27,063 nucleotides of DNA from a virus: IMG/VR virus record IMGVR_UViG_3300028889_000027, positions 1-27,063 of that record. One strand, given 5' to 3'. The first letter of the stretch is position 1; each line of letters starts with the position of its first letter. A program made the translations under genes and the position numbers. The notes under the pieces were generated by a model that worked only from the letters and a program-made list of their open reading frames with translations, ran no database searches and had not been told where the DNA came from. Positions 7,909-27,062 of the stretch are shown piece after piece.

Positions 7909-8337
7909 TCAAGGCATGCCCTTCAGAAGAGGAATCAGGACACTCAGTACCGTTCCCGGTATTGGATTCTTATCAAGCTTCAATTCCGTCTGATCAATTT
8001 CGATCAGTTCCACTTCTACCTCGTTGTCCAGCAACGCACGCTCAGCCTTCATGAAGTCAACGGCTTTGTCAGGCGAGATCCTGTTCTCACCATTGCTATA
8101 CTGCATGAAAGTTTCGTTGCGAGCTTTCTCCAACGCTTTGAGCTCCGGCTCAATGCGGTTCAAGTTCCTAGCGATCAACAAGCGTAGACCGCCTCCAAGT
8201 TCATAATAGACACGAGCGGTCTTCTCACGCTCCCCATCTTTTATGACTTTATCATAGCCATCTAACGCCATGAGACCCTTTTGAAGATCGATCATGGCCT
8301 GGACAGTCATTTTCATTTTACCCTCCGTCTTTTTCAT
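7909..8337 (-). CDS. Conserved-looking phage protein of unknown function (142 aa or shorter)
   Basis: The first ATG at 8337 overlaps the stop of the glycine-rich gene by four bases (ATGA). Later ATGs at 8316 and 8310 lie behind a good GGAGGG, so the real start may be there, giving 133-135 residues. The protein is mostly helical and charged (AMIDLQKGLMALDGYDKVIK near the N-terminus; DKAVDFMKAERALLDNEVEV near the C-terminus), then a short Pro-containing strand region. No signal peptide or membrane segment. I recognise no catalytic motif. Its place among fibre genes could suit a fibre chaperone, but that is only a guess. Confidence 0.7.
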   Translation of the reverse strand: MKKTEGKMKMTVQAMIDLQKGLMALDGYDKVIKDGEREKTARVYYELGGGLRLLIARNLNRIEPELKALEKARNETFMQYSNGENRISPDKAVDFMKAERALLDNEVEVELIEIDQTELKLDKNPIPGTVLSVLIPLLKGMP

Positions 8338-9317
8338 AGGACTAAGAACGAACTATCATTATTAACTGCGGTCTGAGTAAACGTGAGACCAATCAATCCA
8401 CCTGCACCTGTTCCAGCGTTCTTCGTTCCAGTTGTTGACCGCTGGCCGCCAGCACCACCACCCCCGCCACCATAGTTCCCGCCATTGCCCCCGCTGGTAA
8501 TCGCATTAGCAGTATTGACGGAGTTGCCGCCACCCGCACCGCCGCCACCACCCGGTCCATGTGTCGAGTCAAAAGTCGTAGCGCCTATGGCGTTGCCGCC
8601 GTGTGTGTCAGCGGACGCCACGCCGGAGTGGAACCCGCCGCCGCCGCCCGCACCTGTGGTGCCTGTGGCGTTGGCGCCTGCTGGCGTGCCTGACGTACCC
8701 CCAGCACCCCCGCCAGTGCCCGCGCCAGCCGTGCCTGACGTCGTAGAGGCGTTGGAGCTAGTACCCCCGCCATTTGCACCGCCGCCGCCAGTGCCTCCCA
8801 GAGTGCCGGCAATCGTCCCGCTACTGCCACCGACGCCTGATGGGCCACCCGCGGCGCCTCCCCCGGTCCCAGACCTAGGCGTTGTCGAGGCAGTCCCGGA
8901 GGCTCCCCCATTATTTTGCTGCGATGCGGTATAAACAACAACAGGGGAACCCGTCGTCGTGATTGTACCCGATCCGCCCGTCTGGCCAGTCTGCGCATTG
9001 CCAGCAAGGCCAGACTGCACATCATAAGAATTGGATTGGGTAGCGCCTTCCCAGATTGTCCGGTTGCGTGTAGACGTACTCGTGCATTCGGCTGCGACGG
9101 CGAAGGCGATGGTGCTTGGCACAGTGCCAGAACTATAAGTCAACAGCGCATGGCCGCCGCCGCTGCCTCCTGCTCCGCCGAGATAACCAGTGCCCGTCGT
9201 TCCTACAACGCCTCGACCGCCCGACGCAAGAAGGTTAACAGTATGCGCGGCAGTGACGAACCCGCCTGGAACTACCCAAGGTGACGTACTGCCAGTATCT
9301 AAGAATACCTGAGCCAT
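8334..9317 (-). CDS. Glycine-rich adhesin-like virion protein
   Basis: 327 residues, start ATG 9317 overlapping the upstream stop (TGATG). The N-terminal ~30 residues (MAQVFLDTGSTSPWVVPGGF) resemble the start of glycine-rich tail-tip domains. From about residue 35 on it contains many runs such as GGTGGGGANGGGTS and GGNGGNYGGGGGGAGG, separated by Ser/Thr/Asn/Ala linkers. Such glycine-rich motifs build polyglycine-helix sandwiches in phage adhesins (known for Salmonella phage S16 Gp38). The C-terminus (LIGLTFTQTAVNNDSSFLVL) is a conventional strand. Likely a host-binding tip or a structural lectin-like domain; the adhesin role is inferred from composition. Confidence 0.7.
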   Translation of the reverse strand: MAQVFLDTGSTSPWVVPGGFVTAAHTVNLLASGGRGVVGTTGTGYLGGAGGSGGGHALLTYSSGTVPSTIAFAVAAECTSTSTRNRTIWEGATQSNSYDVQSGLAGNAQTGQTGGSGTITTTGSPVVVYTASQQNNGGASGTASTTPRSGTGGGAAGGPSGVGGSSGTIAGTLGGTGGGGANGGGTSSNASTTSGTAGAGTGGGAGGTSGTPAGANATGTTGAGGGGGFHSGVASADTHGGNAIGATTFDSTHGPGGGGGAGGGNSVNTANAITSGGNGGNYGGGGGGAGGQRSTTGTKNAGTGAGGLIGLTFTQTAVNNDSSFLVL

Positions 9318-13636: not shown

Positions 13637-14071
13637 TCAATCTATAGAAAGAGTCGTTGCCGTGGTCAAGGTTGGAGTGACACCAGCACCACCGATAGGA
13701 ATGGTTGGAGAGATTGCTCCGTAGATGAACATCTCCGCAGCACCACCACCAGTCTTGCCAGTAGCAAAGTCAGTGACAGTTGTCGCCGATCCGCTGCTGG
13801 CAGGAAACACAAGATTAGCGGCTAACAGCGTTGAGCCACCACTGGCAGACGTCCAACCAGTAGACCGCGCCACGTTTTGTCGCGCATAGTTTCCATACGC
13901 TGATTCGTTGGTTGATAGTGTTCCGGAGTCACCCGGAGAAGCCGTATGGAGGCTCACATGTATGTTGGTCAACGGAGAAGACGCCGCGTTGTCCGCGACG
14001 TTCGCCCATGCAGTAGCGCGGTAGATAAGATTGAGAAGAGAGTTCTCAGCAGTGTCGCCGAAACCAGCCAT
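13637..14071 (-). CDS. Short tail-fibre-family protein (144 aa)
   Basis: Starts at ATG 14071 behind GAGGAG eight bases upstream. The sequence follows a widely occurring phage family: N-terminal MAGFGDTAENSLLNLIYRAT-AWANVADNAASSPLTN, then HVSLHTASPGDSGT, YARQNVARSTGWT, and VFPASSGSATTVTDF. These small beta-rich proteins are annotated as phage tail fibre proteins and probably decorate or join fibres. It is the first virion gene after the sugar cassette and has its own ribosome binding site after a short 20-base gap. Confidence 0.75.
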   Translation of the reverse strand: MAGFGDTAENSLLNLIYRATAWANVADNAASSPLTNIHVSLHTASPGDSGTLSTNESAYGNYARQNVARSTGWTSASGGSTLLAANLVFPASSGSATTVTDFATGKTGGGAAEMFIYGAISPTIPIGGAGVTPTLTTATTLSID

Positions 14072-14091: not shown

Positions 14092-14763
14092 TTAGTTGTG
14101 ACGTGGGCCGGTCGCGGCCAGTGACACCCAGTGTTGTTGAACCCAGGGCAAATGAGTAAACTGTGATGGATCTCGCCAACCAGGGAATACGATCAGGCGC
14201 GCATCACGTGGTAGATCGTCGCCGCGCGGCCATCCCGGCTTCTTGAACGCGAAGATACCGAATCCCGCCTTCCAACCAGAAGACTCTGGAAGCATATGCC
14301 AGATCCAAGCTTGATCGTCGGGGTAATGATGCCATCGCGCCTTGGCGTGCAGGTCCTCGAGGTTGAACTTGGTCCACACGTCCTCATGATACCCGGCTTT
14401 CAGCATCATCAACGAACCGTTGAACGGGTTTGGATTCTCGGAGTTCGCGCCACGCAGGATCAAGAACCTGTCGTCGCGCTCGAAGAACGGCTCGATCGGC
14501 CCTGTCACGATCGAGTCCAGATCCATACACACGATTCTGTCACCACGCTGGATACCTTGTCGCTCTTGCCACTCGCGATCGAACATGCGCAGCCGGCACA
14601 AGCATCCCGGGAGATCGGTCAGGTGAACATCGTGTGGCTCTGGCTTGAACACACGCCACTCGTACGGCTTGCGATGCCACTTCTCCACGCCGAGACGCAA
14701 GCGTTCAATGTACTCCGGACCATACTTCTTGCCCCAGTGCCACGTCGTGATGAACAGGGTCAT
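14092..14763 (-). CDS. GT-A glycosyltransferase-like protein (DLD motif)
   Basis: 223 residues; the start overlaps the preceding stop by four bases (ATGA). Residues 76-86 read RIVCMDLDSIV, where DLD at 81-83 matches the DxD metal/nucleotide-sugar motif of GT-A enzymes, and TGPIEPFFE follows as in GT8-like proteins. Later FNGSLMMLKAG (asparagine-glycine acceptor-side loop) and a His/Trp-rich part (ARWHHYPDDQAWIW) occur. No membrane segment, so probably cytosolic. It is the last gene of the cassette. Donor and acceptor are unknown. Confidence 0.75.
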   Translation of the reverse strand: MTLFITTWHWGKKYGPEYIERLRLGVEKWHRKPYEWRVFKPEPHDVHLTDLPGCLCRLRMFDREWQERQGIQRGDRIVCMDLDSIVTGPIEPFFERDDRFLILRGANSENPNPFNGSLMMLKAGYHEDVWTKFNLEDLHAKARWHHYPDDQAWIWHMLPESSGWKAGFGIFAFKKPGWPRGDDLPRDARLIVFPGWRDPSQFTHLPWVQQHWVSLAATGPRHN

Positions 14764-14960
14764 ACCGGACGAATCCTAAAATCCACGATACACGTAATCG
14801 GACCAACAGACTCGGCTGTAACTATGTGCTGTGCACATAACGCCTGGATTGGATCACGCCAACAAATACAGCCAAGCGGCATATGGAATATGCCAACCGG
14901 AGCGTCACATCCAAAACGACAGCGCAACTCAGCCAACTCAGGCTGTCCAGCGATTTTCAT
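14760..14960 (-). CDS. Small Cys/His-rich protein (66 aa)
   Basis: Both ends show ATGA overlaps with its neighbours, which argues for a real gene. It has six Cys and two His, ordered CRFGC, then H, CIC, ALCAQH and a later C, which could bind a metal (zinc-ribbon-like). No signal peptide is apparent. Lying between a FkbM-like methyltransferase and a glycosyltransferase, it may be an accessory factor. I do not know a named family. Confidence 0.6.
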   Translation of the reverse strand: MKIAGQPELAELRCRFGCDAPVGIFHMPLGCICWRDPIQALCAQHIVTAESVGPITCIVDFRIRPV

Positions 14961-15628
14961 ACATCAACCCATTCACGGGCGAGTACCCCAGCATCACGAT
15001 GCCGCTTCCACTGATCGTCGGGCCATGGGCGAAAGAGATCATCGTAAGTAAAATCTTCCGGGTTGGCGAGAAGATCATCCATCACGAAGAAGGCGTTCAC
15101 CCCATTGGCATAGACGAGATGATATCCTTTTGTGTTGGCGAGCTTGTTCAGTGCCAACAGACTTGCGCCATAATACTGAGTACGATCCCAATGCCAATTT
15201 GAGTTCATGGGAACACTGCAAGAACGCTCTGATGGAAGAATACTGTTGTACTCGATCACTACCAGCGCCGGACGATATTCACAAGAAATCGCTTCCCATA
15301 CCCAATAATCCTGCCCGTCAATGTCGATGGAGAGTACACCGAATATGGGAGGAATCTGATACTTCTCGAACAACCTGTTCACATTGTCCGGTGCAACGTG
15401 CTCACGTTTGATAAAATCTCCATCACCACGAATATCCATCAACACATGCTGCCAGCCCTGCCTCACCAAATGCAGGCAGTTGGCCTCCCATGAAACAACA
15501 CCGATTTCAACGCAGGTCTGAGGCGGCTGCAATCGAGAGGAGATGACCCCAATGATACCATCTTCATCATTCTGAGACAGCACCTTATGCCCGAACTGAC
15601 CCAACGGATATGGAAGAACGGCTTTCAT
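14957..15628 (-). CDS. FkbM-like methyltransferase-fold protein
   Basis: 223 residues from ATG 15628, chosen because it forms an ATGA overlap with the upstream stop; a start nine codons earlier is also open. Motifs: SQNDEDGIIGVI near the N-terminus, CVEIGV (Rossmann glycine-loop analogue, shortened), VLMDIRG (acidic end of strand 2), VLSIDIDGQDYWVW and VVIEYNSILP. This order belongs to a group of FkbM-related proteins with the signature DIDG-DYW, often near polysaccharide genes. It likely methylates a sugar, but the usual GxGxG is degenerate (EIGVVSWEAN), so activity is not certain. Confidence 0.7.
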   Translation of the reverse strand: MKAVLPYPLGQFGHKVLSQNDEDGIIGVISSRLQPPQTCVEIGVVSWEANCLHLVRQGWQHVLMDIRGDGDFIKREHVAPDNVNRLFEKYQIPPIFGVLSIDIDGQDYWVWEAISCEYRPALVVIEYNSILPSERSCSVPMNSNWHWDRTQYYGASLLALNKLANTKGYHLVYANGVNAFFVMDDLLANPEDFTYDDLFRPWPDDQWKRHRDAGVLAREWVDV

Positions 15629-16266
15629 TCGAAAGGCTTCGTGAGAGCGCGGCAACTGTAGTCAACCACCTGCATCTCCGGGATGCCGCGGTCTTCGAAG
15701 TATTCATCAACTGCTTTCTTGCAACCCATCCAATGGCCATAGTCGTCGATGATCAACACTCCACCTTCTACGAGGCGAGGATACAGAATTTCGAGCTCAA
15801 CCTTTGTGGACTCATACCAATCGGTATCAAGCCGCAACAGCGCAATTCTGTCAGGGATGTTGTCTTCATTCTGCAACGTCAACTCGACAGGACCCTCGAC
15901 AAAGCGCAACAGCTTTTCACTGTAGACACCGGCCTGACTGAGATTGAACATCACCTGAGGAAGAGACACGGCATCCTTGCCCACTTTGCCGATCATACGA
16001 TACATGCCTGGAGTATGATCAAAATCACCAGGCTTAGGCATTCCAGTGAACGTGTCGTAGAGCCAGCAGGTGCGCGTCGGGCACAGAAACCGTGCGAGGA
16101 TAATGTTACCGCCCTTCCACACGCCGCATTCGACGACGTCGCCAGGGACTCCCTCGTCCTCGATGTACTGCAAAGCGCCAGCCATCGCAGCCAAGCGCTT
16201 CGGTCCGCTCTTCGTATATGAGAGCGCAACCTCGATCGGGTTAACGCCAGAGAATCCCAATTCCAT
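15625..16266 (-). CDS. TylF/MycF-like sugar O-methyltransferase
   Basis: 213 residues from ATG 16266; longer upstream frame would overlap the previous gene by more than 150 bases and has random-looking sequence. Motifs: GDVVECGVWKGG (SAM-binding loop, residues ~42-53), CWLYDTFTGMPKP, LRLDTDWYEST and VLIIDDYGHW, the metal-ligand Asp pairs of the macrocin O-methyltransferase (TylF/MycF) family. These enzymes are Mg-dependent and methylate sugar hydroxyls. It sits between two other methyltransferase-like genes. The family call is strong; the substrate is unknown. Confidence 0.85.
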   Translation of the reverse strand: MELGFSGVNPIEVALSYTKSGPKRLAAMAGALQYIEDEGVPGDVVECGVWKGGNIILARFLCPTRTCWLYDTFTGMPKPGDFDHTPGMYRMIGKVGKDAVSLPQVMFNLSQAGVYSEKLLRFVEGPVELTLQNEDNIPDRIALLRLDTDWYESTKVELEILYPRLVEGGVLIIDDYGHWMGCKKAVDEYFEDRGIPEMQVVDYSCRALTKPFE

Positions 16267-16822
16267 TATCCCGACCTGTGTGGCACATCTTGATCTCGCG
16301 GTGCCGGTATTGCTGCTTGATCTCGTTCCATACACGAGGGACCTCGATGGGCATCTTCTTTGTCGGTCCTTCCCGCGGTATCCACCCAATGTCATGGAAG
16401 CAGACTATCCTTTTGGACATCGGCCCGTAATTCGCCCAATCCTGGCGAACATACGGCTCGGTGTGATTGGCATCGATCAGGATCGCATCATACGGACCCA
16501 ATGCCCGCGCCTTCTCGATCGTTTCCGGATTGGTGCTATCGCCGAGGATAAGGTGCGCGTCAAAGCCGATCGCCTTGAGATGCTGAACGCACGCACGCAA
16601 GTTTTCCTCAGTCTCCTTGAAGGAAGTGTCGCCGTGTGGTAGGTCCACCGACACGAGGCGCGAACCCTTGGGCAGCGCGTTGTTAGCAATGCGCCACAAG
16701 CTGCCACCATTCTTTGATCCAATCTCAAGGTAGCTCTTGACTCCTTCCTCACGCAACAAAGTGAAGAAGTGATTGAGCTCCACGGGATCCTGAAGGACGT
16801 GTGTCTCGTACTTAGCTGGCAT
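16241..16822 (-). CDS. Class I SAM-dependent methyltransferase (CmcI/Methyltransf_24-like)
   Basis: 193 residues. Motif I is YLEIGSKNGGS (residues ~31-41), followed by LVSVDLPHGD (motif II acid), AHLILGDST, YDAILIDANHTEPYVRQDW and the late IVCFHDIGW. This order fits class I methyltransferases related to cephalosporin hydroxylase CmcI and rhamnosyl O-methyltransferases. An AGGAG five bases upstream of the ATG lies in the end of the preceding 50-aa ORF. Cytosolic, no membrane segment. Substrate probably a sugar, from context. Confidence 0.8.
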   Translation of the reverse strand: MPAKYETHVLQDPVELNHFFTLLREEGVKSYLEIGSKNGGSLWRIANNALPKGSRLVSVDLPHGDTSFKETEENLRACVQHLKAIGFDAHLILGDSTNPETIEKARALGPYDAILIDANHTEPYVRQDWANYGPMSKRIVCFHDIGWIPREGPTKKMPIEVPRVWNEIKQQYRHREIKMCHTGRDNGIGILWR

Positions 16823-16823
16823 C

Positions 16824-16976
16824 CTAGCTCCTAGATATTTTGTTCATAGCCCACCAAGTTCCTAGCGACAAGCTCAGGAAGCCGAGCGCAATGCCAAATG
16901 ACACTACAGCCCAGGTCGCCACATGCTTCTGAACTGGATCAAGCTGAATAACTGTTTTCACTTTTCGTTCTGTCAT
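16824..16976 (-). CDS. Small single-pass membrane protein (50 aa)
   Basis: ATG at 16976 to TAG at 16824. The N-terminal ~18 residues are charged (MTERKVKTVIQLDPVQKH), followed by one hydrophobic segment at residues ~20-44 (TWAVVSFGIALGFLSLSLGT plus WW) and a short basic tail (NKISRS). It overlaps the upstream glycosyltransferase end by 38 bases and stops one base before the next ATG, whose Shine-Dalgarno lies inside it. It may anchor a glycosyltransferase or methyltransferase at the inner membrane. A holin is an alternative, but it is far from any visible lysis gene. Confidence 0.65.
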   Translation of the reverse strand: MTERKVKTVIQLDPVQKHVATWAVVSFGIALGFLSLSLGTWWAMNKISRS

Positions 16977-17763
16977 TTGGAACGCTGTGTGGATGCGACA
17001 TCATATGAATCGAAGCCTTGTATACCTCTTCGACACTGATGCGATCCATTGCGGCGCGACAGTGTGCGCATCGGTATAGTGAACCACAAAACTGCGGTTC
17101 GCCACCTGTCAAGTTGATGTGGGTGTCGTATCCGGTAACTTGCGGGGGAATGAAACCACCGAAGAGGACGACGGCACGCGTACCGACTGCGGCTGCTCCA
17201 TGATGGAGTCCACCTTCTGGAACGATCGCAAGGCTAGCTCGTGCAAGAATAGCCAGTGCATCGCGGAAGCCGTGTGTGCGGACAACGCGAATTCCTGCCA
17301 TATGATCCCGGCCATGCGCAAATTGAACCACATTGAAGTCCTCCTTCAACTTTCCAGCGACTTCGTAGTAGTTCGCCAGACCCCAGTCCTTGTTGACCGC
17401 GACGGACTTCTGCCACGGCACGTTCGGCTCGATCAAGATGAAATTACTGCCTACTCGCTCGGCCGCTTTCAACTCTTCTTGAGTAAAGAATATCTCTCCA
17501 GGCACAGGTTTGAAACTGAAGTCCCACACCCAATGTCCATTGCCGAGTTTGTTGTACATGCGATGCCCCTTGTAATGGGGTATCCACTCGAGATCATTAC
17601 ACTGCTCCTCACCTGGACGAGCAATGTTTGGATTACGCCGAAAGATCTCCTCAGACCACGGACCCCAGATAATTTTTTTACGATCACCAAAAGCTGCTCG
17701 TTTCCCGCGCGTTGCAAGACCCCGCGCCAGACCAGATGCCATGATATCGTCGCCGTAGCCCAT
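16939..17763 (-). CDS. GT9 heptosyltransferase-like glycosyltransferase
   Basis: 274 residues from ATG 17763, which overlaps the upstream TAA (TAATG) and starts with the expected GYGDDIMASGLAR loop of GT-B enzymes; an ATG six codons earlier is less likely. The C-terminal half has FNVVQFAHGRDH, ALAILARASLAIVPEGGLHH, GAAAVGTRAVVLFGGFIPP and the Cys cluster CGSLYRCAHCRAAMDRI, all features of ADP-heptose:LPS heptosyltransferase relatives (GT9). No membrane segment. With the HldD-like epimerase in the same cassette, heptose or a related sugar is a reasonable donor guess. Confidence 0.8.
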   Translation of the reverse strand: MGYGDDIMASGLARGLATRGKRAAFGDRKKIIWGPWSEEIFRRNPNIARPGEEQCNDLEWIPHYKGHRMYNKLGNGHWVWDFSFKPVPGEIFFTQEELKAAERVGSNFILIEPNVPWQKSVAVNKDWGLANYYEVAGKLKEDFNVVQFAHGRDHMAGIRVVRTHGFRDALAILARASLAIVPEGGLHHGAAAVGTRAVVLFGGFIPPQVTGYDTHINLTGGEPQFCGSLYRCAHCRAAMDRISVEEVYKASIHMMSHPHSVPNDRTKSENSYSA

Positions 17764-18608
17764 TACTGGATCAATCGCCAAAGCGTTCCGTCAACGAGCT
17801 CTTGTTCGTTGAATTGACAATAAGCCAAGGAGTTAAGCCACTGAACTCGGTCTGGGTAAACCGGATTCTCAATATCGTCGAAGCCAACTTTCCCCACCAA
17901 CGCAGCCGCCGATTCTTGGTCAACAAAAACAGGGCAACCGAATACCGCAGCCTCGACAGCGGCGATGGACCCATGTGCCACGAGGCAATGAGCATCAGCA
18001 AGTTCCTCGTGCAGCGGTATAGAGCTTTCCTTGTGACGAATGATCACTTGATATTTTGGATAACGCTTCTGTAGCTGCATTGCGAGTGCATGCGACCACG
18101 TGATAGGCAACCCACGCACTAGCCAATAGTCCGGCAACGTATCGGCAATCACGATCTTGCGTCCACCCCTGCGCCATGGTCTCACTTCGTGCTCAAGATT
18201 GAGAGCCTTCCAGCGGTCAGCCGGTACCTGACGCACGCTGGACATTTGAAATTCGTTGATGTGCCATCGGTAGTATCCACCGGAATCTCCACGAGGGAGC
18301 CAGGTCGCAAATACTCTTCTAAGGTACCCACGGTCCCAATAGATGAAGGTACGACCACTCGCCCGCCACTGTCGTAGATAGGGCTCGAGCGGAGGGGAGC
18401 ATCCAACGATTGGGATACAATCATCGTCAAGCCTTCCGAGGAGATCGTAGTCATGACGAATGACCCTACCTACCTTAGCGCCTATTCGCTCGAAGAGGTT
18501 AAGCTTGAATTTCTTGAGTCCCGGAGGAATGAAGAGAGCGACCTTCGACGGATCGATCTTCCATTTCCATGAGGAGGAGGGAGACGAGATGGAGGGTAGA
18601 CTTAGCAT
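17763..18608 (-). CDS. GT-B-like glycosyltransferase / polysaccharide biosynthesis protein
   Basis: 281 residues from the ATG at 18608 (GAGGGAAG lies upstream). The first ~20 residues are Ser/Pro-rich and may be untranslated or weak; recognisable sequence begins at KVALFIPPGLKKFKLN. The C-terminal part CLVAHGSIAAVEAAVFGCPVF followed by acidic residues resembles the donor-site helix of capsule-type transferases and other GT-B proteins; WLNSLAYCQFNEQELVDGT follows and is shared by phage proteins of this type. Donor and acceptor unknown. The TAATG overlap couples it to the GT9 gene. Confidence 0.65.
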   Translation of the reverse strand: MLSLPSISSPSSSWKWKIDPSKVALFIPPGLKKFKLNLFERIGAKVGRVIRHDYDLLGRLDDDCIPIVGCSPPLEPYLRQWRASGRTFIYWDRGYLRRVFATWLPRGDSGGYYRWHINEFQMSSVRQVPADRWKALNLEHEVRPWRRGGRKIVIADTLPDYWLVRGLPITWSHALAMQLQKRYPKYQVIIRHKESSIPLHEELADAHCLVAHGSIAAVEAAVFGCPVFVDQESAAALVGKVGFDDIENPVYPDRVQWLNSLAYCQFNEQELVDGTLWRLIQ

Positions 18609-18765
18609 ACGTGATTCTTCCCTCGTCCACTGCCTGCACCGCTGCCTTCAAATATATGATAGTCAATTCTTTGGGATCAACGTCCGTAATCGCCAAATGG
18701 GTTTGGGTTTCGATAGTTGTCGATTGCGTAGCCGGCTGCTTGAGCTTCTGCGAGCGTATCGTCAT
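18499..18765 (-). CDS. Possible small helical protein overlapping two neighbours (88 aa)
   Basis: This frame overlaps the 3' end of the GT8-like gene by about 90 bases and the 5' end of the next gene by 110. Its central part (KELTIIYLKAAVQAVDEGRI, then STLHLVSLLLMEMED) is a credible amphipathic helix, but the last 20 residues look like out-of-frame reading of the next gene. It could be a real gene that fills the 68 bases between its neighbours, or a shadow. No good Shine-Dalgarno is visible. Confidence 0.35.
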   Translation of the reverse strand: MTIRSQKLKQPATQSTTIETQTHLAITDVDPKELTIIYLKAAVQAVDEGRITYAKSTLHLVSLLLMEMEDRSVEGRSLHSSGTQEIQA

Positions 18766-19465
18766 AGAGCTTCACCGCGTCTTGACGTGGATGGGGAGAC
18801 ACCGGCTGCTTATTGTACCAATGGACTATGCCCTCACTCTTGCAACGAGGCAGGGCATACTTGAGATGGGGTTGCCAGGGTATGGCAGTGAAATGAAGGA
18901 GTTTAATATCTGGATCGTCAATGGAGGAGTACTCTCCACCTTGATCGCGTCGCATATCGAGACAATTCCAATTTCCTTGGTAGCGCCGAATAACATCAGG
19001 ATGTGAAAACTGCTTGCGAACATTACGATACGCTCCTGCCTGCTTGATTATATGCAGCGGCGGCAGCAAGTTCTTCATCGCTGCATTATCATACATCGAC
19101 ACACAGATGGCTTCGGGCTTACTGACCATGGGCTTTCCATTGAAGGGAGTATCCCACAATTCGGCAATGTCGGCCTTGACCAATTTGTCCAGGTCCATGT
19201 AGATCGCCTTGCCCTGGAAGTTACACGCGGCAGGAATGCCCCAACGCAAGGCTGAAAACGGAGTCGCCCAGCCTTGCGTCTGCCAGCCTTCACGGGTTCC
19301 AGGGTTCGAGTACCAAAACGAACTCGGGTCTTTGGACAGTCGCATCCACGTGATGTCGAGCGGTCGGCTGGCATGTTTTTCCAGTGTATAGTGAACCGTG
19401 CAATCAAACTCAATGTCTTCATTGTTCGCTGAAGTACCAATGAAGATACGGATAGGGTCAGTCAT
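18677..19465 (-). CDS. GT8-like GT-A glycosyltransferase
   Basis: 262 residues; ATG at 19465 overlaps the upstream TGA by four bases. Start IRIFIGTSANNEDIEFDCTV is typical of GT8-like enzymes. FQGKAIYMDLDKLVKADIAE gives the DxD motif at residues 91-93 and the W-D that follows. Later: GNWNCLDMRRDQGGEYSSID, KLLHFTAIPWQPH (the HF-x-x-x-x-PW helix-strand end common in GT8). It resembles the 223-aa enzyme of the same cassette in its DLD position. A cytosolic sugar transferase of unknown specificity. Confidence 0.8.
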   Translation of the reverse strand: MTDPIRIFIGTSANNEDIEFDCTVHYTLEKHASRPLDITWMRLSKDPSSFWYSNPGTREGWQTQGWATPFSALRWGIPAACNFQGKAIYMDLDKLVKADIAELWDTPFNGKPMVSKPEAICVSMYDNAAMKNLLPPLHIIKQAGAYRNVRKQFSHPDVIRRYQGNWNCLDMRRDQGGEYSSIDDPDIKLLHFTAIPWQPHLKYALPRCKSEGIVHWYNKQPVSPHPRQDAVKLYDDTLAEAQAAGYAIDNYRNPNPFGDYGR

Positions 19466-20118
19466 CGCAGTGCCTCAGCAATCGTCATCTTTGGATATGA
19501 TGTCAGCGTACTGACGGGGGAGCAGTTGATGACGCGGACACCAAGGGTGGTGAGCTTCTCGAAGGAACCGTCCAACGACTTCTTCCAACGATCGAAATTG
19601 ATCTGACTTGGATTTCCGCACGGGGGAAGATGACGCCCGTGCCAATGGGTGTCGAGATCTGATCGCATGTCAAATCCAACAAGTAAGATTTTCCTGGCTC
19701 CAAATTGTACAGCAAGATTGAGCGCTTGGAATCCAGAGCAGCCGCCTGCGCCAACAACTCCAGCCTTGTCGACGAGTATGACATCGCTGCTTTCCCTGAT
19801 CATAATCTTGTTGATGCCAACGTGGAACAAGGCCAACGTGGAATCATAGCACAGCTTCAAGCCATCAAACTGCGGATTGCGGGAGTTCCACCATTTCACG
19901 TCACAACCATACAGCACGTCGGCCCACGGACAAAGCTGATAACTCTCATTAACCACAACGACCTTGGCGTGCCCTCTAAGCTGATCAACGCCCGCGCTCT
20001 TGGCTGAAGGACCAGCGCCCACGATTGCCGCTGTCTGACCACGCCAATCTTTCCACCAGGGATGGAGCGCTGGTCCCTCATCTTGTGCAACGTTGGTCGG
20101 GAGGGTCAGCATATCCAC
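19462..20118 (-). CDS. Maf/DUF115-like glycan-modification protein
   Basis: The longest frame starts with GTG at 20118; the ATG at 20112 is an equally good start (216 residues). The sequence AAIVGAGPSAKSAGVDQL, VVVVNESYQL, DVLYGCDVKWWN, ILLVGFDMRSDLDTHWHG and NPSQINFDRWKKSLDG is the pattern of the DUF115/Maf (6-hydroxymethylpterin-pyrophosphokinase MptE-like) fold. Members with GFDMR-x-HWHG are seen in phage and surface-glycan loci and are related to flagellin glycosyltransferases. The role here is probably glycosyl transfer or a related nucleotide-dependent step. Cytosolic. Confidence 0.75.
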   Translation of the reverse strand: MDMLTLPTNVAQDEGPALHPWWKDWRGQTAAIVGAGPSAKSAGVDQLRGHAKVVVVNESYQLCPWADVLYGCDVKWWNSRNPQFDGLKLCYDSTLALFHVGINKIMIRESSDVILVDKAGVVGAGGCSGFQALNLAVQFGARKILLVGFDMRSDLDTHWHGRHLPPCGNPSQINFDRWKKSLDGSFEKLTTLGVRVINCSPVSTLTSYPKMTIAEALR

Positions 20119-20213
20119 CAGAGTTGCAATTCCGCGCGGTACCGGGGACGCAACAATCTAATGCCACGTCCTGACCAATGCCGATTAGCGTAGTATGTGA
20201 TCTTGCGTGGCAT
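20106..20213 (-). CDS. Possible very small basic protein (35 aa)
   Basis: An open frame of 35 residues (start MPRKITYYANRHWSGR, end LQLWWIC) with the ATG overlapping the epimerase stop (TGATG) and the TGA lying just inside the next gene. It fills the only ~95-base gap in this part. Both ends sit at positions typical of coupled genes, but the length is too small for confidence. It could be a leader peptide that couples translation. Confidence 0.4.
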   Translation of the reverse strand: MPRKITYYANRHWSGRGIRLLRPRYRAELQLWWIC

Positions 20214-21181
20214 CAAGCTGCCTCTACCTGTAGCTGCTCATATGCCGCGACGGTCCGTTGCACACCCTCTTCCATGGACATGAACGCAGAGTGATAACCA
20301 GCGTCGCGCAACTTCCGCATGTCGGCTTCCGTGCGATACTGATAGTTACTGCGAATGTCCTCAGGCATATCAATATATTCAATCTTCGGATAACGCCCGA
20401 AGCTGTTGGCAAGAGCAATCATCACCTCGTTGAACGTGCGTGCATAGCCGGTACCGACGTTGTAGATACCCGACGATCGTGCACCATTCAGGAACCACCA
20501 GATGATCGCGCAAACATCGTCTACATGAATAAAGTCGCGCGACTGTTGACCATCCTTGACCATGTGACGATGTGACTTGAACAGCGTTACCGGTTGATCG
20601 TTCTTGATCTGCTCGAGCCGCTGCGACACGATGCTCGCCATCGGTCCCTTGTGATACTCACGCGGTCCAAAGACATTGAAAAATTTCAAACCTACCCACC
20701 ACGGCGGGCACTGATTCATTGACTTCTCAGCAACAAACATATCAAATGCTTGCTTGGACCAGCCGTAAGTATTTAATGGACGAAGAAAACGCAACGGCGT
20801 CTTTTCACTGAAGCCATAATCACCACCACCATATGTGGCAGCAGAACTGGCGTAGATCATTGGCACACGATTTTCGGTACACCAGCGGAATAGCTCTGTC
20901 GGCAAACAGAAATTGACAACAAACATCTCTCCATCATGACGACGCGTATCAGTTATGGCACCAAGATGAATGAACGCATCAAGCTTGCGATTGCGCAGCC
21001 AATCCGTCAATCCCCAAGGATTTACCCGTTCCTTGATCTTCGTGTCGGCAAGATTTTGGCACTTGTTGAAAGACCGATTGACCAGGGAATCACAGATCAC
21101 AACGTCCGTCACCCCACGCTGATTCAAATAATGAACCAGATTGGAACCTATAAAGCCCGCTGCCCCAGTGACGAGTATCAT
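20213..21181 (-). CDS. HldD-like ADP-glyceromanno-heptose 6-epimerase homologue (extended SDR)
   Basis: 322 residues. Glycine loop GAAGFIGSN (6-14), YASSAATYGGG (Ser/Thr catalytic area, ~110-120), YGWSK (Tyr139, Lys143), KFFNVFGPREYHKGPMAS (166-183), RDFIHVDDV and IYNVGTG. The GPRE-x-HKG-MAS and TYGGG signatures are those of HldD/RfaD, which interconverts ADP-D- and ADP-L-glycero-D-manno-heptose for LPS core synthesis. All catalytic residues appear present. It is the first enzyme of the cassette, start overlapping the secreted-protein stop (ATGA). Because substrate preference in SDR enzymes varies, another NDP-sugar is possible. Confidence 0.88.
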   Translation of the reverse strand: MILVTGAAGFIGSNLVHYLNQRGVTDVVICDSLVNRSFNKCQNLADTKIKERVNPWGLTDWLRNRKLDAFIHLGAITDTRRHDGEMFVVNFCLPTELFRWCTENRVPMIYASSAATYGGGDYGFSEKTPLRFLRPLNTYGWSKQAFDMFVAEKSMNQCPPWWVGLKFFNVFGPREYHKGPMASIVSQRLEQIKNDQPVTLFKSHRHMVKDGQQSRDFIHVDDVCAIIWWFLNGARSSGIYNVGTGYARTFNEVMIALANSFGRYPKIEYIDMPEDIRSNYQYRTEADMRKLRDAGYHSAFMSMEEGVQRTVAAYEQLQVEAA

Positions 21182-21543
21182 GGCAACCGCTTGACAACTT
21201 TATTCAGCGTGGTGCTGACATAGCATGCAAAGTTGGTTTCCCATCCCTCGCGCAGACGGGTTGTCCCTCCGTGTATTTCACCATCAGCGTTGATACCGAT
21301 GATGACGATATACGAGCCATGCCACAAGTAGGGAGACGAAGGAGGAATATCCGGACTATCGTAGAGAATATATCCACCTGCCAATAAACGCGGTACCGAT
21401 GTGGCCTCGATATAGGCAACCTGCTCCGCGGTAAACGCAGAGACGGCGCCATTCGCCAGAAACTTTCCACCACCAATAACGCATGACGCAGCTTGAGTCT
21501 GAACCGGAAACGCCATCAGCATTACTATAAGCAACCACTTCAT
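21178..21543 (-). CDS. Small secreted protein with signal peptide, unknown (121 aa)
   Basis: Starts at ATG 21543, followed by a classic signal peptide: basic MK, hydrophobic WLLIVMLMAFPV, and a likely signal peptidase I site at QTQA/AS. The Cys at residue 21 is not in a convincing lipobox. Mature part (~100 residues) has GGGKFLANGAVSAFTAEQVA, then a strand-rich middle (YILYDSPDIPPSSPYLWHGS) and a basic C-terminus. Two Cys in the mature part may form a disulfide. No family recognised. It could act in the periplasm (for example superinfection exclusion or fibre maturation); that is a guess. Confidence 0.7.
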   Translation of the reverse strand: MKWLLIVMLMAFPVQTQAASCVIGGGKFLANGAVSAFTAEQVAYIEATSVPRLLAGGYILYDSPDIPPSSPYLWHGSYIVIIGINADGEIHGGTTRLREGWETNFACYVSTTLNKVVKRLP

Positions 21544-21553
21544 GTTTTCTTCC

Positions 21554-22837
21554 TTATGGATTATTCACCCACACCCGCTCGCCCTGCTTGCCTTGCGGAC
21601 CTTGCGGCCCCGGAGCTCCATCCCTGCCGTTCTTACCATCTTTGCCCGATGCGCCACGCTTGGTAGATAGCGTCCATTCTTTATGACCATCGCGAGGGCC
21701 TGTAGTCGTCGGCACTTGGCACGTCCACATGGAACCTGACCATGTAACAGTGTCGCCACGAAGATAATTCTGGCCTTCCTTATAGACACCACGATAAATC
21801 GGTATGCATGTCGTGAACTTAAATTCCTTGAGAACCTCACCGTCCCGAATATATCGGCGAATCAAGATGCGGCCATCGTCCTGGTATTCTTCTTCCAGGT
21901 CATCAATACCCAATCCTTTTTCACCACGTTCACCAGGATCGCCCTTCTCACCACGCTCACCGGCATCACCCTTCTCGCCGCGATCTCCACGATCTCCACG
22001 GTCGCCCCGCTCACCACGGTCGCCCTGATCGCCTTGATCACCTTTGTCACCCTTCTCGCCACGAGCACCAATCTCGCCAACTAATCCTTGCGCGCCTTGC
22101 TCGCCAGCATCACCCTTCTCGCCGCGATCTCCAGGATCGCCTTTCTCACCCTTTTCACCTTGAGTCCCAACTAATCCTTGCTCTCCTTGCTCTCCCTTTT
22201 CGCCTCGATCTCCTCGTTCGCCTGCATCCCCCTTGGGTCCCTGAATTCCAACGTCACCTGGATCACCCTTTTCCCCTCGCTCACCACTAGCACCTGTCTC
22301 TCCAGGGTCGCCTTTCTCACCTCGAGCCCCAATTTCTCCAGGGTCGCCTTTATCTCCAACAGGTCCTTGCAGTCCTTGAATTCCTTCGGGACCAACATCC
22401 CCTCGGTCACCTTTCTCACCCTGAACGCCTTGAGTACCGCGTTCTCCTGGGTCTCCTTTGTCGCCCTTTTCACCGCTTGCTCCTACAGCCCCATCCGCCC
22501 CTTGCGCGCCTATTTCACCCTTTTCGCCACGCTCGCCCGCGTCGCCTTTTTCGCCACGCTCGCCCGCGTCGCCTTTCTCCCCTTTCTCGCCGGGCTCGCC
22601 CCGATCACCTTTTTCACCGGCGATGCCAGCAACGCCTTGCTCCCCGCGATCACCCTTCTCACCAAGCTCGCCTTTTTCGCCTTTCTCACCACGATCTCCT
22701 TTGATTGGAGTACGCGCTTCAACCACGGCCAAGCGCTCAAGGACCGGTGCGAGTGACTCCCGTACCGACTGCACAACATAGTTCCTGATGACAGGGGCCA
22801 TACCCTCCATCAACAATGATACTGAATGCTGATTCAT
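21554..22837 (-). CDS. Collagen-like phage fibre with carbohydrate-binding-like module
   Basis: 427 residues from ATG 22837, which overlaps the portal stop (ATGA). Residues 1-46 are helical (RNYVVQSVRESLAPVLERLA) and probably form a trimeric coiled coil. Residues ~47-307 are about 87 uninterrupted Gly-X-Y triplets rich in GEK, GDR, GDP and GER, so a triple helix is expected. Residues ~308-394 form a folded module with YRGVYKEGQNYLRGDTVTWS, GSMWTCQ and EWTLSTKRG, resembling CBM5/12-type modules in phage proteins. Residues ~395-421 are nine more triplets (GKDGKNGRDGAPGPQ). Likely a virion fibre that binds glycan. Head or tail location is not shown by sequence. Confidence 0.85.
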   Translation of the reverse strand: MNQHSVSLLMEGMAPVIRNYVVQSVRESLAPVLERLAVVEARTPIKGDRGEKGEKGELGEKGDRGEQGVAGIAGEKGDRGEPGEKGEKGDAGERGEKGDAGERGEKGEIGAQGADGAVGASGEKGDKGDPGERGTQGVQGEKGDRGDVGPEGIQGLQGPVGDKGDPGEIGARGEKGDPGETGASGERGEKGDPGDVGIQGPKGDAGERGDRGEKGEQGEQGLVGTQGEKGEKGDPGDRGEKGDAGEQGAQGLVGEIGARGEKGDKGDQGDQGDRGERGDRGDRGDRGEKGDAGERGEKGDPGERGEKGLGIDDLEEEYQDDGRILIRRYIRDGEVLKEFKFTTCIPIYRGVYKEGQNYLRGDTVTWSGSMWTCQVPTTTGPRDGHKEWTLSTKRGASGKDGKNGRDGAPGPQGPQGKQGERVWVNNP

Positions 22838-24270
22838 GCTGCGATATCCCGAGCAACCGGGGGAAGATTGCGTAGACAACTATCCAACTGCCACGCGCCA
22901 AACTGCTTCAATGCAGCCGCTTCTATCTGAGCTTGTTCATCGGTCGGTTGCACTACTGGCTGCGGTGCTGGAGCAGGCAGCAATGGACTGTTCTTATCAC
23001 GCTCGGACAATGCTTCCAGCGAATAGTTCTGCTGTTGCATCCAGATAGATTCACCACCTTCGATCGGCGGCAAATCTAGCTTCTTACGCGCGGCATTGAT
23101 CTCCATGACTGGAGTGCCTGTAGCCTTGGTCAACACTTCCATCTGAGTTGCCGAATCCATGCGCAGCAACCCATCAAGATCCAACTCTGTACCATAGATC
23201 TTGCCCGGAACTGTGGTCAAGCTAAGACCTTCATCTAGCGAAAGTTCGAGTTTCTCGATAAGCTTCTGCAGACACTGCGAATAATACTGTTGATTCAATG
23301 CTTCAATATTGTTGTAGCTCGGTGGTTGACCAACACCCACCATGTGCGGCGGTACATGAAACGTTGAACACACGATCTCCGCTGAAAGCTTCAACTGCTC
23401 AATCAATTGCGCATCGATGGCGGTCATTGTCAAACGTTCAAACTTGAGCCCATCGCCAGCAACGACAACGCGCCCAACATTCGCACCAGATGTTGCCGCT
23501 TCAAAGTAAGTCGTCAAACGCTCGGCCACATCATCGCCGATGTGTCCGGGTGCAGTAAGCACACCGCCAGGGGAAGACTTGTTGGCGAAAAACTGCACAG
23601 ACTGTTGTTGGATATTCATTCCCTGTGCCGCTGCAAGGAAACTCGCGGTCAATGGCGAGACCCCACACAATGGATGATAAAGCGGCACCATCAGATCGTG
23701 AATGATTTCACTCGCAGGCACTTTCGTTTGATCTTCCGCACGTCCTGTGCCCACGCCAGCGAGCACATCGTAGCCGAGATCATAATAGATATCACCGTTG
23801 TCCGCCTGTAACGGTCTGACGCGATTAGGATCGAGGATATGCAGCGCTACAACGACGCCACGGTTATCGCGCTCCTTGAGCACGTACGTATTTCCATTGA
23901 TCAACTTGGAAACGATCCACTGCTCTAAGAACGTAATTCGATTCTGATAATTATTCGGCTTCCTGAGGACAGGCCAGAAAGGCGAGTCGCGATTCACTTC
24001 GGACCAGATGCCGTTTCTATCTTGCTCAACGAGCTTGATCCTCAGCTTGCCAACGTCCGAAGCAATCAGCGTGATACAAGAAAACACCGCGCTATACGAC
24101 AGCACGTTCTCGGTGCGTAGCTCCATATTGCGTTGCCACGCACCAGTAAACGGTTCACGGATGACGGGGTGCCACCATCGCCCCCGATCACCCGTAATAG
24201 GTATGGGCAACTGCTTCTCGCTGACGTTGACGTCAGCAGCGTTGCGCCCGAGCCAGCTCAGGAATCTCAT
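22834..24270 (-). CDS. Portal protein, HK97 family
   Basis: 478 residues. N-terminal short basic part, then VLSYSAVFSCITLIASDVGK, KLINGNTYVLKERDNRG, VPASEIIHDLMVPLYHPLCG, GVLTAPGHIGDDVAERLTTY, FHVPPHMVGVGQPPSYNNIE and LQKLIEKLELSLDEGL, all typical of HK97/lambda-type portals. The dodecameric ring forms the DNA gate at the capsid vertex. ATG overlaps the TGA of the 119-aa gene. The C-terminal ~50 residues are a Pro/Gln-rich extension (LPAPAPQPVVQPTDEQAQIE) and a helical end. Position after the capsid rather than before the protease is unusual. Confidence 0.92.
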   Translation of the reverse strand: MRFLSWLGRNAADVNVSEKQLPIPITGDRGRWWHPVIREPFTGAWQRNMELRTENVLSYSAVFSCITLIASDVGKLRIKLVEQDRNGIWSEVNRDSPFWPVLRKPNNYQNRITFLEQWIVSKLINGNTYVLKERDNRGVVVALHILDPNRVRPLQADNGDIYYDLGYDVLAGVGTGRAEDQTKVPASEIIHDLMVPLYHPLCGVSPLTASFLAAAQGMNIQQQSVQFFANKSSPGGVLTAPGHIGDDVAERLTTYFEAATSGANVGRVVVAGDGLKFERLTMTAIDAQLIEQLKLSAEIVCSTFHVPPHMVGVGQPPSYNNIEALNQQYYSQCLQKLIEKLELSLDEGLSLTTVPGKIYGTELDLDGLLRMDSATQMEVLTKATGTPVMEINAARKKLDLPPIEGGESIWMQQQNYSLEALSERDKNSPLLPAPAPQPVVQPTDEQAQIEAAALKQFGAWQLDSCLRNLPPVARDIAA

Positions 24271-24737: not shown

Positions 24738-26135
24738 TCAACCGCCGACGTACTTGGCGTAGTTGATGTAGGCGACGGCGGTGGCGCGCCGCTTGACCCA
24801 GTTGATGTACCGCTCGGCCTTGACCGCGATCAAGTTGTGCTGCCACAACGAGACGAGGACGGTGGAGGCGGTCGGCGGCGAATCAGGCGTCGAGTCCATC
24901 TGCAGCGAGGCCTCGCGGCTCACGTCGATGGACACTTGGCCGTCATCTGCCAACAGGATCTCGGGCGCCTTGACGAGAAGGATACGACCGCCGTTGTTGG
25001 GCGAATCGCCGACGTCCGGGATATTCTCCGACGTGACAACCGGCAAGCCGAGCAAGGTGCCGCCCTCGCCGGTGATGCCGGGATACAGCGGCACACCGAG
25101 AGAGTTGAGCATCATGCCGATGGCGAGCGCCTGCGTCGACGTCATGATCCACACCGCTCCCGCGAGACCCAGGTTATTGTCGAGGAACGATTGGGTCAGC
25201 GAGAGAATGTCGGCGCGGAACGCCGCAGCGTTGATACCAGTCGCCGTGACCGGAGTCACACCGTTGGTGATCGAAGCCGGCGAGACAGTCGCCTGCAACG
25301 CCTTCGTCGGATCGACGAAGTCACGATCCATCAACTGGATCACGGCGCGACTGAGATCATCGCGAACGATGGCCTCGGCCGACGGCGAGCTGAACCTGAC
25401 GAGTTCCTCCGACAGCGGAATGATGCCGGCGATCTTCGTGAAGTCCAGAGTCACCTGGTCGAACGCGAGAGCGCTGAGGGGCTTGACCTTGGTTTCACCC
25501 ACCCAGTTGACCGACGCACCGGTCGTCTGCCGCGGCACCTTGATATTGAACGGCACGTTGCGAAGACCGGGGATGCGCCCGATGATCGTTGCCGGCCGCA
25601 GGAACTCCGCGAACTCGCCCGGAAGATTCTGCGCAACGACGAGCGGTGCTGCCCAGGTGGTGTTCGTGGTGGTGCCGGAGGCGACCGCCGCCTTGTGCCG
25701 CAGATAGCTCTCGATTTCCGGATTCTCCGGCCACCGATTCTTGGCGACTTCGTACGGAGGAACGTGTTCCTTGTACGCGACGATGGATGCGATGATCGCT
25801 CGGGTAAAGCGAATACCCGGAGGCAGTTGATCGCGCATCTGAGTGACGACCGGAGCACGACTGCCGGCTCGAGACTCGGACGCTGCCGCAGGCGTGGTCC
25901 CATTGATCGGGGCCGCCTTCTGGACGTTCAGCTTCTCGAGGGTATTGAGCCGCTCGAGATGATCGTCGATCTGCTTGATCTCGTCCTTGAGTCCATCGAA
26001 CTCCTGGGACTCGGACTCGTCCATCGTCTCGCCTTTCTCGCCGGACGAATCGGCGAGCTCTTGCATCCGCGCGGCTTTCGCCTGACGGGTCGCTTCGTAT
26101 GCGGAGATCTGATCCGCAAGGGACTTCCTGGCCAT
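24738..26135 (-). CDS. Major capsid protein, HK97 fold, from internal start
   Basis: An in-frame ATG at 26135 (MARKSLADQI) is preceded by a perfect AAGGAG at 26150-26145 with a 9-base spacer, inside the fusion frame. The product is 465 residues: a delta/scaffolding coiled coil of ~70 residues (DGLKDEIKQIDDHLERLNTL), a cleavable linker region around AAPINGTTPAAASE, N-arm and then HK97 capsid fold (GRIPGLRNVPFNIKVPRQTT, LAGAVWIMTSTQALAIGMML, PDVGDSPNNGGRILLVKAPE). Cleavage by the protease would remove the delta domain. This arrangement permits excess capsid over protease. Region is GC-richer than its neighbours, with G/C-ending codons. Confidence 0.8.
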   Translation of the reverse strand: MARKSLADQISAYEATRQAKAARMQELADSSGEKGETMDESESQEFDGLKDEIKQIDDHLERLNTLEKLNVQKAAPINGTTPAAASESRAGSRAPVVTQMRDQLPPGIRFTRAIIASIVAYKEHVPPYEVAKNRWPENPEIESYLRHKAAVASGTTTNTTWAAPLVVAQNLPGEFAEFLRPATIIGRIPGLRNVPFNIKVPRQTTGASVNWVGETKVKPLSALAFDQVTLDFTKIAGIIPLSEELVRFSSPSAEAIVRDDLSRAVIQLMDRDFVDPTKALQATVSPASITNGVTPVTATGINAAAFRADILSLTQSFLDNNLGLAGAVWIMTSTQALAIGMMLNSLGVPLYPGITGEGGTLLGLPVVTSENIPDVGDSPNNGGRILLVKAPEILLADDGQVSIDVSREASLQMDSTPDSPPTASTVLVSLWQHNLIAVKAERYINWVKRRATAVAYINYAKYVGG

Positions 26136-27062
26136 CGTCTGTTTCTCCTTGACTTTGACCGGTTTACGGAGGCCAGACGCGGCCGGTGGTGAACGTCGCT
26201 CGTCACTCTGCTCATTGCCTGACGCGGCGGCGAGCTCTTGAGTAACGATTGATCGGATCTGAGTAATGGTGCAGTCTGCGTTCGCAGGAATGGTGACAGC
26301 ACTCAACTCCAGCCATTCCCACTCTTTGATGTCGAGCCCTGAAGCCCAATCATCTTTGTCAATCATCTCGTGCTTGAGAATCTTGAAGCCAATTGAGACC
26401 GCCTTGACCAACCCGTACTTGACGGACTGCCACGCTTCATCGATGCGATCCTTGAGGCGACCCGGTTCTGGAATACTGGCGAAGCGGGCAGTAAAAGGAA
26501 TTCCATTATCCGTTGGCTCAGCGAGCTCGACCCATCCAACGGGCTCACGACCGTTGTGTTGCCACAACAACGGCATTGGAACTTTGAACTTGGCTCCACG
26601 AGGACGAACAATGTCGCCAACCCTATCGACGGTCGGTGTCGAGGCAATACCTTTGATCACTCGCTCGTCATCTTTTCCAATGCTCTTGATCTCGAGCATT
26701 GAATAGGCGCGCTGCATTCCGCTCACATCACGCTGCTGCATTCCACTCATGCCCTTTTCCCAATCATTGAACTCTGCTTTGTGCTTGATGAGCCACTTGC
26801 GCATCGCTTTCGCGTCGCTGGTGGAATATGAAAGCCCGTCGTCAGACTCGGCTTCCCATTTCTGCGCGATGTCTTCCCAAGTAACTTCGATCGTATCGGG
26901 CTTGCCATCGCTGTTTATGTAATCGTAGACAGCGGCACCCTGTTTCTCTTTGTCGGGCAGCGGATAGTCCGGATGCTTGGACTGCTTGCCGTCCTCGCCT
27001 TCGAGACCAGCAGCGTCATCACCCTCGTCGTCTCCATCACCGTCGCCGGAGATGAACTGTCC
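24738..27062 (-). CDS. Prohead protease-major capsid protein fusion ORF (5' end outside window)
   Basis: The frame is open from the window edge at 27062 to TGA at 24738. An ATG at 26804 gives 688 residues; 86 further residues upstream are open (acidic GDGDGDDEGDDAAG, then KHPDYPLPDKEKQGAAVYDY), so the true start may lie outside. Numbering from 26804: protease domain ~35-165 with IKGIASTPTVDRVGDIVRP, LLWQHNGREPVGW (His83) and LVKAVSIGF (Ser137), the HK97 U35-type catalytic residues; then a linker; at 224 MARKSLADQI begins the capsid delta/coiled-coil region (to ~295) and the HK97 capsid fold from ~365 (EFAEFLRPATIIGR, PRQTTGASVNWVGETKVKPL). Proteases and capsids are usually separate genes. Confidence 0.85.
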   Translation of the reverse strand, partial: GQFISGDGDGDDEGDDAAGLEGEDGKQSKHPDYPLPDKEKQGAAVYDYINSDGKPDTIEVTWEDIAQKWEAESDDGLSYSTSDAKAMRKWLIKHKAEFNDWEKGMSGMQQRDVSGMQRAYSMLEIKSIGKDDERVIKGIASTPTVDRVGDIVRPRGAKFKVPMPLLWQHNGREPVGWVELAEPTDNGIPFTARFASIPEPGRLKDRIDEAWQSVKYGLVKAVSIGFKILKHEMIDKDDWASGLDIKEWEWLELSAVTIPANADCTITQIRSIVTQELAAASGNEQSDERRSPPAASGLRKPVKVKEKQTMARKSLADQISAYEATRQAKAARMQELADSSGEKGETMDESESQEFDGLKDEIKQIDDHLERLNTLEKLNVQKAAPINGTTPAAASESRAGSRAPVVTQMRDQLPPGIRFTRAIIASIVAYKEHVPPYEVAKNRWPENPEIESYLRHKAAVASGTTTNTTWAAPLVVAQNLPGEFAEFLRPATIIGRIPGLRNVPFNIKVPRQTTGASVNWVGETKVKPLSALAFDQVTLDFTKIAGIIPLSEELVRFSSPSAEAIVRDDLSRAVIQLMDRDFVDPTKALQATVSPASITNGVTPVTATGINAAAFRADILSLTQSFLDNNLGLAGAVWIMTSTQALAIGMMLNSLGVPLYPGITGEGGTLLGLPVVTSENIPDVGDSPNNGGRILLVKAPEILLADDGQVSIDVSREASLQMDSTPDSPPTASTVLVSLWQHNLIAVKAERYINWVKRRATAVAYINYAKYVGG
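26145..26150 (-). promoter_or_regulatory. Internal Shine-Dalgarno for the capsid protein
   Basis: AAGGAG on the minus strand, nine bases before the in-frame ATG at 26135. The site lies exactly where protease sequence ends and the capsid coiled coil begins, which decides the internal start. It is the strongest ribosome binding site I noticed in the fusion ORF. Confidence 0.75.

Follow-up and report, generated by a model that had tools for sequence, protein, structure and literature searches.

The window analysed here, that is, the whole 27,063-base stretch of the IMG/VR virus record IMGVR_UViG_3300028889_000027, carries a cassette of genes for predicted glycosyltransferases and methyltransferases, which extends from position 21181 to position 14092 on the minus strand. 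Every assigned gene of the window is on this strand, and so are the cassette ORFs and the capsid, portal, collagen-like, signal-peptide-like, fibre and adaptor genes whose positions are given below. Transcription runs through a fused protease–capsid gene, a small protein, the portal, a collagen-like protein and a signal-peptide-like protein before it enters the cassette; a fibre protein, a tail fibre, small proteins, the head–tail adaptor and a long tape-measure-type protein (a label which rests on gene position and length) come after it. A preliminary description of this DNA had pointed out the cassette, its extent and the strand that it shares with virion genes, all of which is borne out by the open reading frame (ORF) calls and, for the virion flanks, by profile matches. 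The genes were said to be all coupled by overlaps; the junctions are indeed mostly tight or overlapping (overlaps of 4, 19 and 31 nucleotides are found), but two of them have gaps, of 94 and 68 nucleotides.

Enzymes encoded in the cassette

The profile searches advocated in the preliminary description were run for each cassette protein, and HldD, GT9, TylF and Methyltransf_24 exceed their cut-offs. The HldD-like epimerase (20213–21181) scores 355.8 bits against NCBIfam TIGR02197, whose curated cut-off is 274.6, and its best match in the PDB is the solved HldD 1eq2 (1e-58), with which its nucleotide-binding and S/Y/K motifs (SSAATY, YGWSK, HKG) align. Judged by the NCBIfam cut-off and the alignment of the catalytic motifs, this protein is a true HldD (ADP-L-glycero-D-manno-heptose 6-epimerase), and an accessory enzyme specific to the window.

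The GT9-like transferase (16939–17781) passes the gathering score of PF01075 marginally (23.5 bits versus 22). The best PDB match of its profile is 1psw, heptosyltransferase II (2.5e-6), and its score against TIGR02195, the equivalog of heptosyltransferase II of lipopolysaccharide (LPS), is 15.7 bits, below the cut-off of 134.6. By its sequence it is a marginal yet real member of GT9, nearest to heptosyltransferase II, and it probably uses ADP-heptose. The neighbouring protein that we call GTx (17763–18608) has no match in Pfam, NCBIfam or the PDB in profile or sequence searches. Its AlphaFold2 (AF2) model, with a mean predicted local distance difference test (pLDDT) of 77, nonetheless has the GT-B fold that had been suspected. 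The nine best solved folds for this model of pLDDT 77 are all the beta-Kdo (3-deoxy-D-manno-octulosonate) transferases KpsC/WbbB, with template modelling (TM) scores of 0.42–0.54; the best Foldseek match is 6mgd (1.1e-5, probability 1.00, TM 0.54).

The protein described as Maf/DUF115-like (19462–20118) matches phrog_4603 (1.4e-41), and the nearest solved fold to its AF2 model (pLDDT 90) is CstII (E-value 5.9e-4, probability 1.00, TM 0.57), so that the predicted fold is of the GT42 type. On the other hand, its score against the MptE-like family PF01973 is 23.6 bits, under the gathering score of 34.6. GPS and H158 are invariant in its alignment. The MDLD motif is present in both of the proteins presented as DLD-type GT-A enzymes. 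One of them, GTD (14092–14763), matches the glycosyltransferase family phrog_1962 (7e-9), with D81/D83 invariant across 10 aligned sequences, whereas the other, GT8-like (18677–19465), remains below the Pfam cut-off for PF01501 (2.3e-4); its DxD is invariant across 11 aligned sequences.

Three methyltransferase-like proteins had been listed, two of which are supported by profiles. MT24 (16241–16822), an S-adenosylmethionine-dependent O-methyltransferase-like protein, matches Methyltransf_24, PF13578 (5.5e-9, 37.3 bits versus a cut-off of 26.3), and many O-methyltransferases of the PDB are matched by its profile. A relative of the TylF-type sugar O-methyltransferases (15625–16395; PF05711, 8e-40, 137 bits versus a gathering score of 23) may truly start at its codon 44, at about 16266. 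The third (14957–15655), for which no family was found in Pfam, PHROGs or NCBIfam, is a probable methyltransferase from its EIG motif. Two tiny ORFs complete the cassette: a 50-residue protein with one hydrophobic segment (16824–16976; maximum Kyte–Doolittle value 1.83) and a cysteine-rich ORF of 66 residues (14760–14960), which overlaps both neighbours by 4 nucleotides and has no family match.

Phage glycosyltransferases do act on hydroxymethylated bases, and this precedent makes it conceivable that the enzymes hypermodify phage DNA, giving glycosylated and methylated bases. We consider this very improbable, since TylF and the relatives of the heptosyl- and Kdo-type enzymes act on saccharides, the multi-enzyme set lies among virion genes, and no thymidylate-synthase-family protein was found in 20 cassette-bearing records, some of which are fragments.

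A conserved module in phage genomes

About 170 loci, some of which overlap, came from surveys of viral contigs that started from the portal, DUF115, GTx and GT9, and a scan of bacterial genomes with GTx added five (one in Bradyrhizobium, two in Mesorhizobium, and two in metagenome-assembled genomes, of a Hyphomonadaceae and a Phenylobacterium). With profiles built from the surveyed loci, we counted seven core families: DUF115-like, GT8-like, GTx, GT9, MT24, GTD and MT11, a small methyltransferase resembling Methyltransf_25/12. Besides the window, 94 loci have a GT9 gene; all seven core families are present in 44 of them, six in 24 and five in 15. After removal of near-identical loci, at least five of the seven core genes are found in 63 of the 73 non-redundant GT9 loci, the window included, which answers the question of conservation in related phages. 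These 73 loci come mostly from IMG/VR contigs and otherwise from genomes of Mesorhizobium, Bradyrhizobium and Phenylobacterium; the recurrence of the same set in them shows that the cassette is not a product of chance. The core genes are all on the same strand (601 of 601), and virion genes share the strand of the cassette in 223 cases, with 2 on the opposite one.

The usual order is DUF115, GT8, GT9 and MT11 (either one first), MT24, GTD and GTx. The window departs from it in that GTx precedes GT9; it also lacks MT11, and has the HldD, TylF and 14957 genes in addition. No counterpart of HldD or of the 14957 gene was found in the other surveyed loci, and an epimerase-family search of 20 fuller records returned only two matches, which are to the epimerase family. 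The accessory genes of other loci encode FkbM methyltransferases or hexapeptide acyltransferases. When the cassette was compared with annotated phages at the nucleotide level, no match was obtained.

Some loci have peculiarities of their own. A second, diverged DUF115 gene lies downstream of the head–tail adaptor in locus L084 (17591–18190), and likewise in several relatives. In the two Mesorhizobium genomes (L186 and L187), the GTx relative is split across two overlapping frames; these are perhaps decaying prophages.

The core genes usually sit within the head module, and the cassette has three sites in the non-redundant loci: by the capsid gene, on the side that faces the portal (10 loci), after the portal and collagen genes (16) and after the head–tail adaptor (24); in 20 others the available stretch contains no virion gene of the type seen in the window. 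At least three types of portal occur beside cassettes: phrog_145 (upstream of the cassette in L093 and L164) and phrog_21 (in L122 and L132) are both unrelated to the portal of the window. Proteins for head completion, for tail completion and of the tail tube are among the families that recur downstream of cassettes. The median ratio of nonsynonymous to synonymous substitution rates (dN/dS) ranges from 0.09 to 0.17 per core gene, compared to 0.105 for the portal: the core genes are under purifying selection. Taken together, the three sites, the several portals and the low dN/dS indicate a functional module whose tie is with the late structural region and not with one type of capsid. The content and the site of the cassette differ between phages, as they would if it were a passenger (moron) cluster with no role, retained by chance at a spot that tolerates insertions; this is hardly credible, however, considering that dN/dS is low in every core gene and that the same core set is found in several head backgrounds.

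Cultured relatives

The Caulobacter phage CcrColossus has a related set: gp126 is DUF115, gp127 GTx-like, gp128 GTx, gp129 GT8, gp130 an annotated methyltransferase and gp131 GT9 (profile E-values from 1e-37 to 1e-58, gp127 being weaker at 2e-12). It follows the tail genes gp122–gp125 and precedes the endolysin. The arrangement in Bertelyvirus C1 is like that of CcrColossus. In contrast to CcrColossus and the Bertelyviruses, phiCbK and its close relatives are not among the matching records; the accessible text of the phiCbK paper describes a structural module followed by lysis genes, and cassette-type genes are not discussed in it.

In the Dishui Lake phage DSL-LC06, heptosyltransferase II, KpsC, sialyltransferase, glycosyltransferases and methyltransferases are annotated in one stretch. 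This independent annotation agrees with the fold results for the window proteins. The DSL-LC06 paper raises the possibility of a glycosylation system in a general way.

In Tetraselmis viridis virus S20 (L092), a related set is flanked on one side by capsid-region genes and on the other by the head closure gene. The recorded host of this virus is an alga, yet terminase, portal and tape-measure genes mark its genome as that of a tailed phage; its cassette has two DUF115 genes.

Flanking virion genes

The frame at 24738–27062, which runs off the window, encodes a maturation protease fused to the major capsid protein (phrog_617 and phrog_80), and the portal (22834–24270) matches phrog_2271 (1e-114). 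The collagen-like protein (21554–22879) matches PF01391 (1.5e-51) and phrog_1289, and carries a C-terminal module resembling carbohydrate-binding module (CBM) families 5/12 (PF02839, 1.2e-4, under the cut-off). The name "portal protein" given to phrog_1289 looks like a mislabelling. Phages of this group very often encode such a collagen-like protein with a CBM5/12-like module immediately behind the portal, whether or not they have the cassette. Downstream of the cassette are a fibre or head protein (13637–14071; profile matches to Gp80-like PF23140 and phrog_240) and the head–tail adaptor (5967–6593; phrog_442, 8e-34). Low-complexity proteins with Gly/Thr/Ala repeats are encoded at 6863–7900 and 8334–9317.

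Between the collagen gene and HldD, a protein of 121 residues (21178–21543) has a hydrophobic N-terminus like that of a signal peptide; it has no family in Pfam or PHROGs and no relative among the portal-survey loci. The fact that this ORF abuts HldD in the window, and that the CcrColossus set lies between tail and lysis genes, would fit an alternative in which the glycan goes on another late phage product, cytoplasmic or secreted, such as this protein, or is a free soluble saccharide. We regard this as improbable; the lack of relatives of the ORF makes it unlikely to be the general acceptor.

Proposed function

From the genes alone, we propose that the cassette directs the cytoplasmic assembly of a methylated glycan of the Kdo/heptose type on virion proteins; we give this reading a probability of about 0.5. 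A soluble oligosaccharide-assembly cassette would be expressed late, together with virion genes, and fed by nucleotide sugars of the host: CMP-Kdo for the DUF115-like protein, GTx or both, ADP-heptose for GT9 and nucleotide hexoses for the DxD enzymes. A short chain would be built stepwise on an acceptor in the cytoplasm, for which a virion protein is the likeliest candidate; enzymes of the TylF/MT24 type would then O-methylate the sugars. Accessory genes (in the window, HldD and two further methyltransferases) would alter the chain, and HldD would boost the supply of ADP-L,D-heptose. As a speculation, the decorated particle might adsorb differently, or escape binding by debris or defences. 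That glycosyltransferase and methyltransferase genes are co-conserved with virion genes is what a phage virion glycosylation system should display.

Regarding the donors, we looked up the corresponding genes in four host genomes, which are those of hosts of relatives rather than of the window phage's own host. HldD exceeds its cut-off in all four, and a CTP_transf_3 gene (KdsB type) is found in all four, with a single copy in each Mesorhizobium. NeuB was not found in three of the four, including both Mesorhizobium; Bradyrhizobium was also tested. Since the Mesorhizobium hosts have no NeuB and one CTP_transf_3 gene, CMP-Kdo would be their sole evident CMP-ulosonate. This speaks against the use of sialic-type donors by the DUF115-like protein and accords with the fold of GTx. 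Sialylation is therefore disfavoured.

The enzymes of the LPS core use the same donors, ADP-heptose and CMP-Kdo, whose synthesis genes are present in the hosts, and the glycosyltransferases of the cassette resemble them (heptosyltransferase-like GT9, Kdo-transferase-like GTx, GT8). This leads to the main alternative, in which the cassette remodels the LPS core of the host late in infection, from the cytoplasmic side, by adding or methylating Kdo, heptose or hexose; receptors would then be masked, so that fewer progeny would be lost on debris or the cell would resist superinfection. GTx, GT9 and the DUF115 proteins are also basic (median isoelectric point about 9), as is compatible with peripheral-membrane enzymes of the LPS core. 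Conversely, the cassette sits in the late head/tail region and not among lysogeny genes, only 6 of 20 records gave an integrase match, there is no membrane-anchored enzyme, and Caulobacter jumbo phages carry the set too, where it lies between the tail and the lysis genes. On the basis of the late-region placement and the presence in these jumbo phages, we favour a virion acceptor and hold LPS-core remodelling to be a rather unlikely, if serious, competitor.

In support of virion glycosylation, the preliminary description had put forward the absence of flippase and GtrB genes. This absence is real: no polytopic membrane protein was found in the window set or among the unassigned ORFs of 88 cassettes. 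It excludes the usual periplasmic O-antigen conversion. However, the Kdo and heptosyl transferases that build the LPS core operate in the cytoplasm too, hence a modification of the core is compatible with the absence. What stands of the earlier argument is the soluble set, which shares its orientation with virion genes and is conserved along with them in many phages; its force with respect to flippase and GtrB is weakened, and so is the case for the collagen protein as acceptor. The GXY region of the collagen proteins is mostly 0–7% Ser/Thr, some cassette-bearing phages (L005, L051) have no GXY repeat, and phages with no detected cassette have the collagen/CBM protein as well: the repeat is Ser/Thr-poor and dispensable. 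Gly/Ala-repeat proteins related to those of the window were rejected as the acceptor as well, since no more than 7 of 101 cassette loci have them (and 1 of 49 loci without cassette).

Several other observations weigh against virion glycosylation. The glycan and its acceptor are predictions, the donors are deduced, the fold matches are moderate (TM 0.54–0.57), and the location beside late genes could reflect timing alone. A mirror-tree test, in which distances between cassettes were set against those between portals, gave a noisy signal. Last, in Pelagibacter phage Mosig (L183, 12833–18667), a GTx relative lies among glycosyltransferases, methyltransferases and a sulfotransferase-like gene, in a cluster that adjoins ribonucleotide reductase genes instead of virion genes.

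Relation to known systems and significance

Virion glycosylation has been reported in actinobacteriophages (Freeman et al. 2023, as cited in PMC13313380). As far as the citing text describes it, that system likewise combines phage-encoded glycosyltransferase and methyltransferase genes with sugar chains on virion proteins, which are predicted for the cassette; the hosts and genes are others, the glycan is reported there from experiment, and what sets the cassette apart is a core of seven genes that includes Kdo/heptose-type relatives.

Large algal viruses such as PBCV-1 glycosylate their capsid with self-encoded enzymes and have O-methylated sugars. The likeness is in the virus-encoded set of glycosyltransferases and methyltransferases, which in PBCV-1 acts on the capsid protein; PBCV-1 is a eukaryotic virus with other enzymes, and we compare descriptions, not sequences. 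Phage O-antigen conversion loci (of the gtrABC, oac or wzy type) also transfer or modify sugars, but they act on lipid-linked O-antigen and use membrane proteins (GtrA/GtrB, a polymerase, an acyltransferase) that are absent from the cassette. With LPS inner-core assembly (HldD, GT9 heptosyltransferases, Kdo transferases) it shares enzyme families and likely donors, although the phage enzymes are distant (GT9 is barely over the Pfam cut-off and GTx has no sequence family) and their genes are linked to those of virion proteins and of several methyltransferases. Flagellin Maf/DUF115 and GT42 transferases have the fold of the DUF115-like protein, and Maf acts on a protein acceptor; unlike them, the phage protein is below the PF01973 cut-off, and the tested Mesorhizobium and Bradyrhizobium hosts have no NeuB.

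No earlier description of a Kdo/heptose-type module in head operons was found in the searchable literature, from which subscription papers are mostly absent. Virion glycosylation had already been reported in actinobacteriophages and is known in large algal viruses, and what appears to be new, judging from gene content, is a conserved module in the head operons of alphaproteobacterial phages. The broadest form of the proposal, that a widespread lineage of these phages uses a dedicated cytoplasmic pathway of seven enzymes to cover its particles with a Kdo/heptose glycan that is O-methylated and resembles the LPS core, is tentative, and we would not yet bet on it. If it is true, the virion would be dressed in a modified version of the surface chemistry of the host, and multi-step virion glycosylation, with donors from LPS-core metabolism, would be common in tailed phages of Alphaproteobacteria. 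Caulobacter offers a comparison within one host, between CcrColossus and the Bertelyviruses, which have the set, and the phiCbK group, which is unmatched. The cassette also bears on phage adsorption and superinfection.

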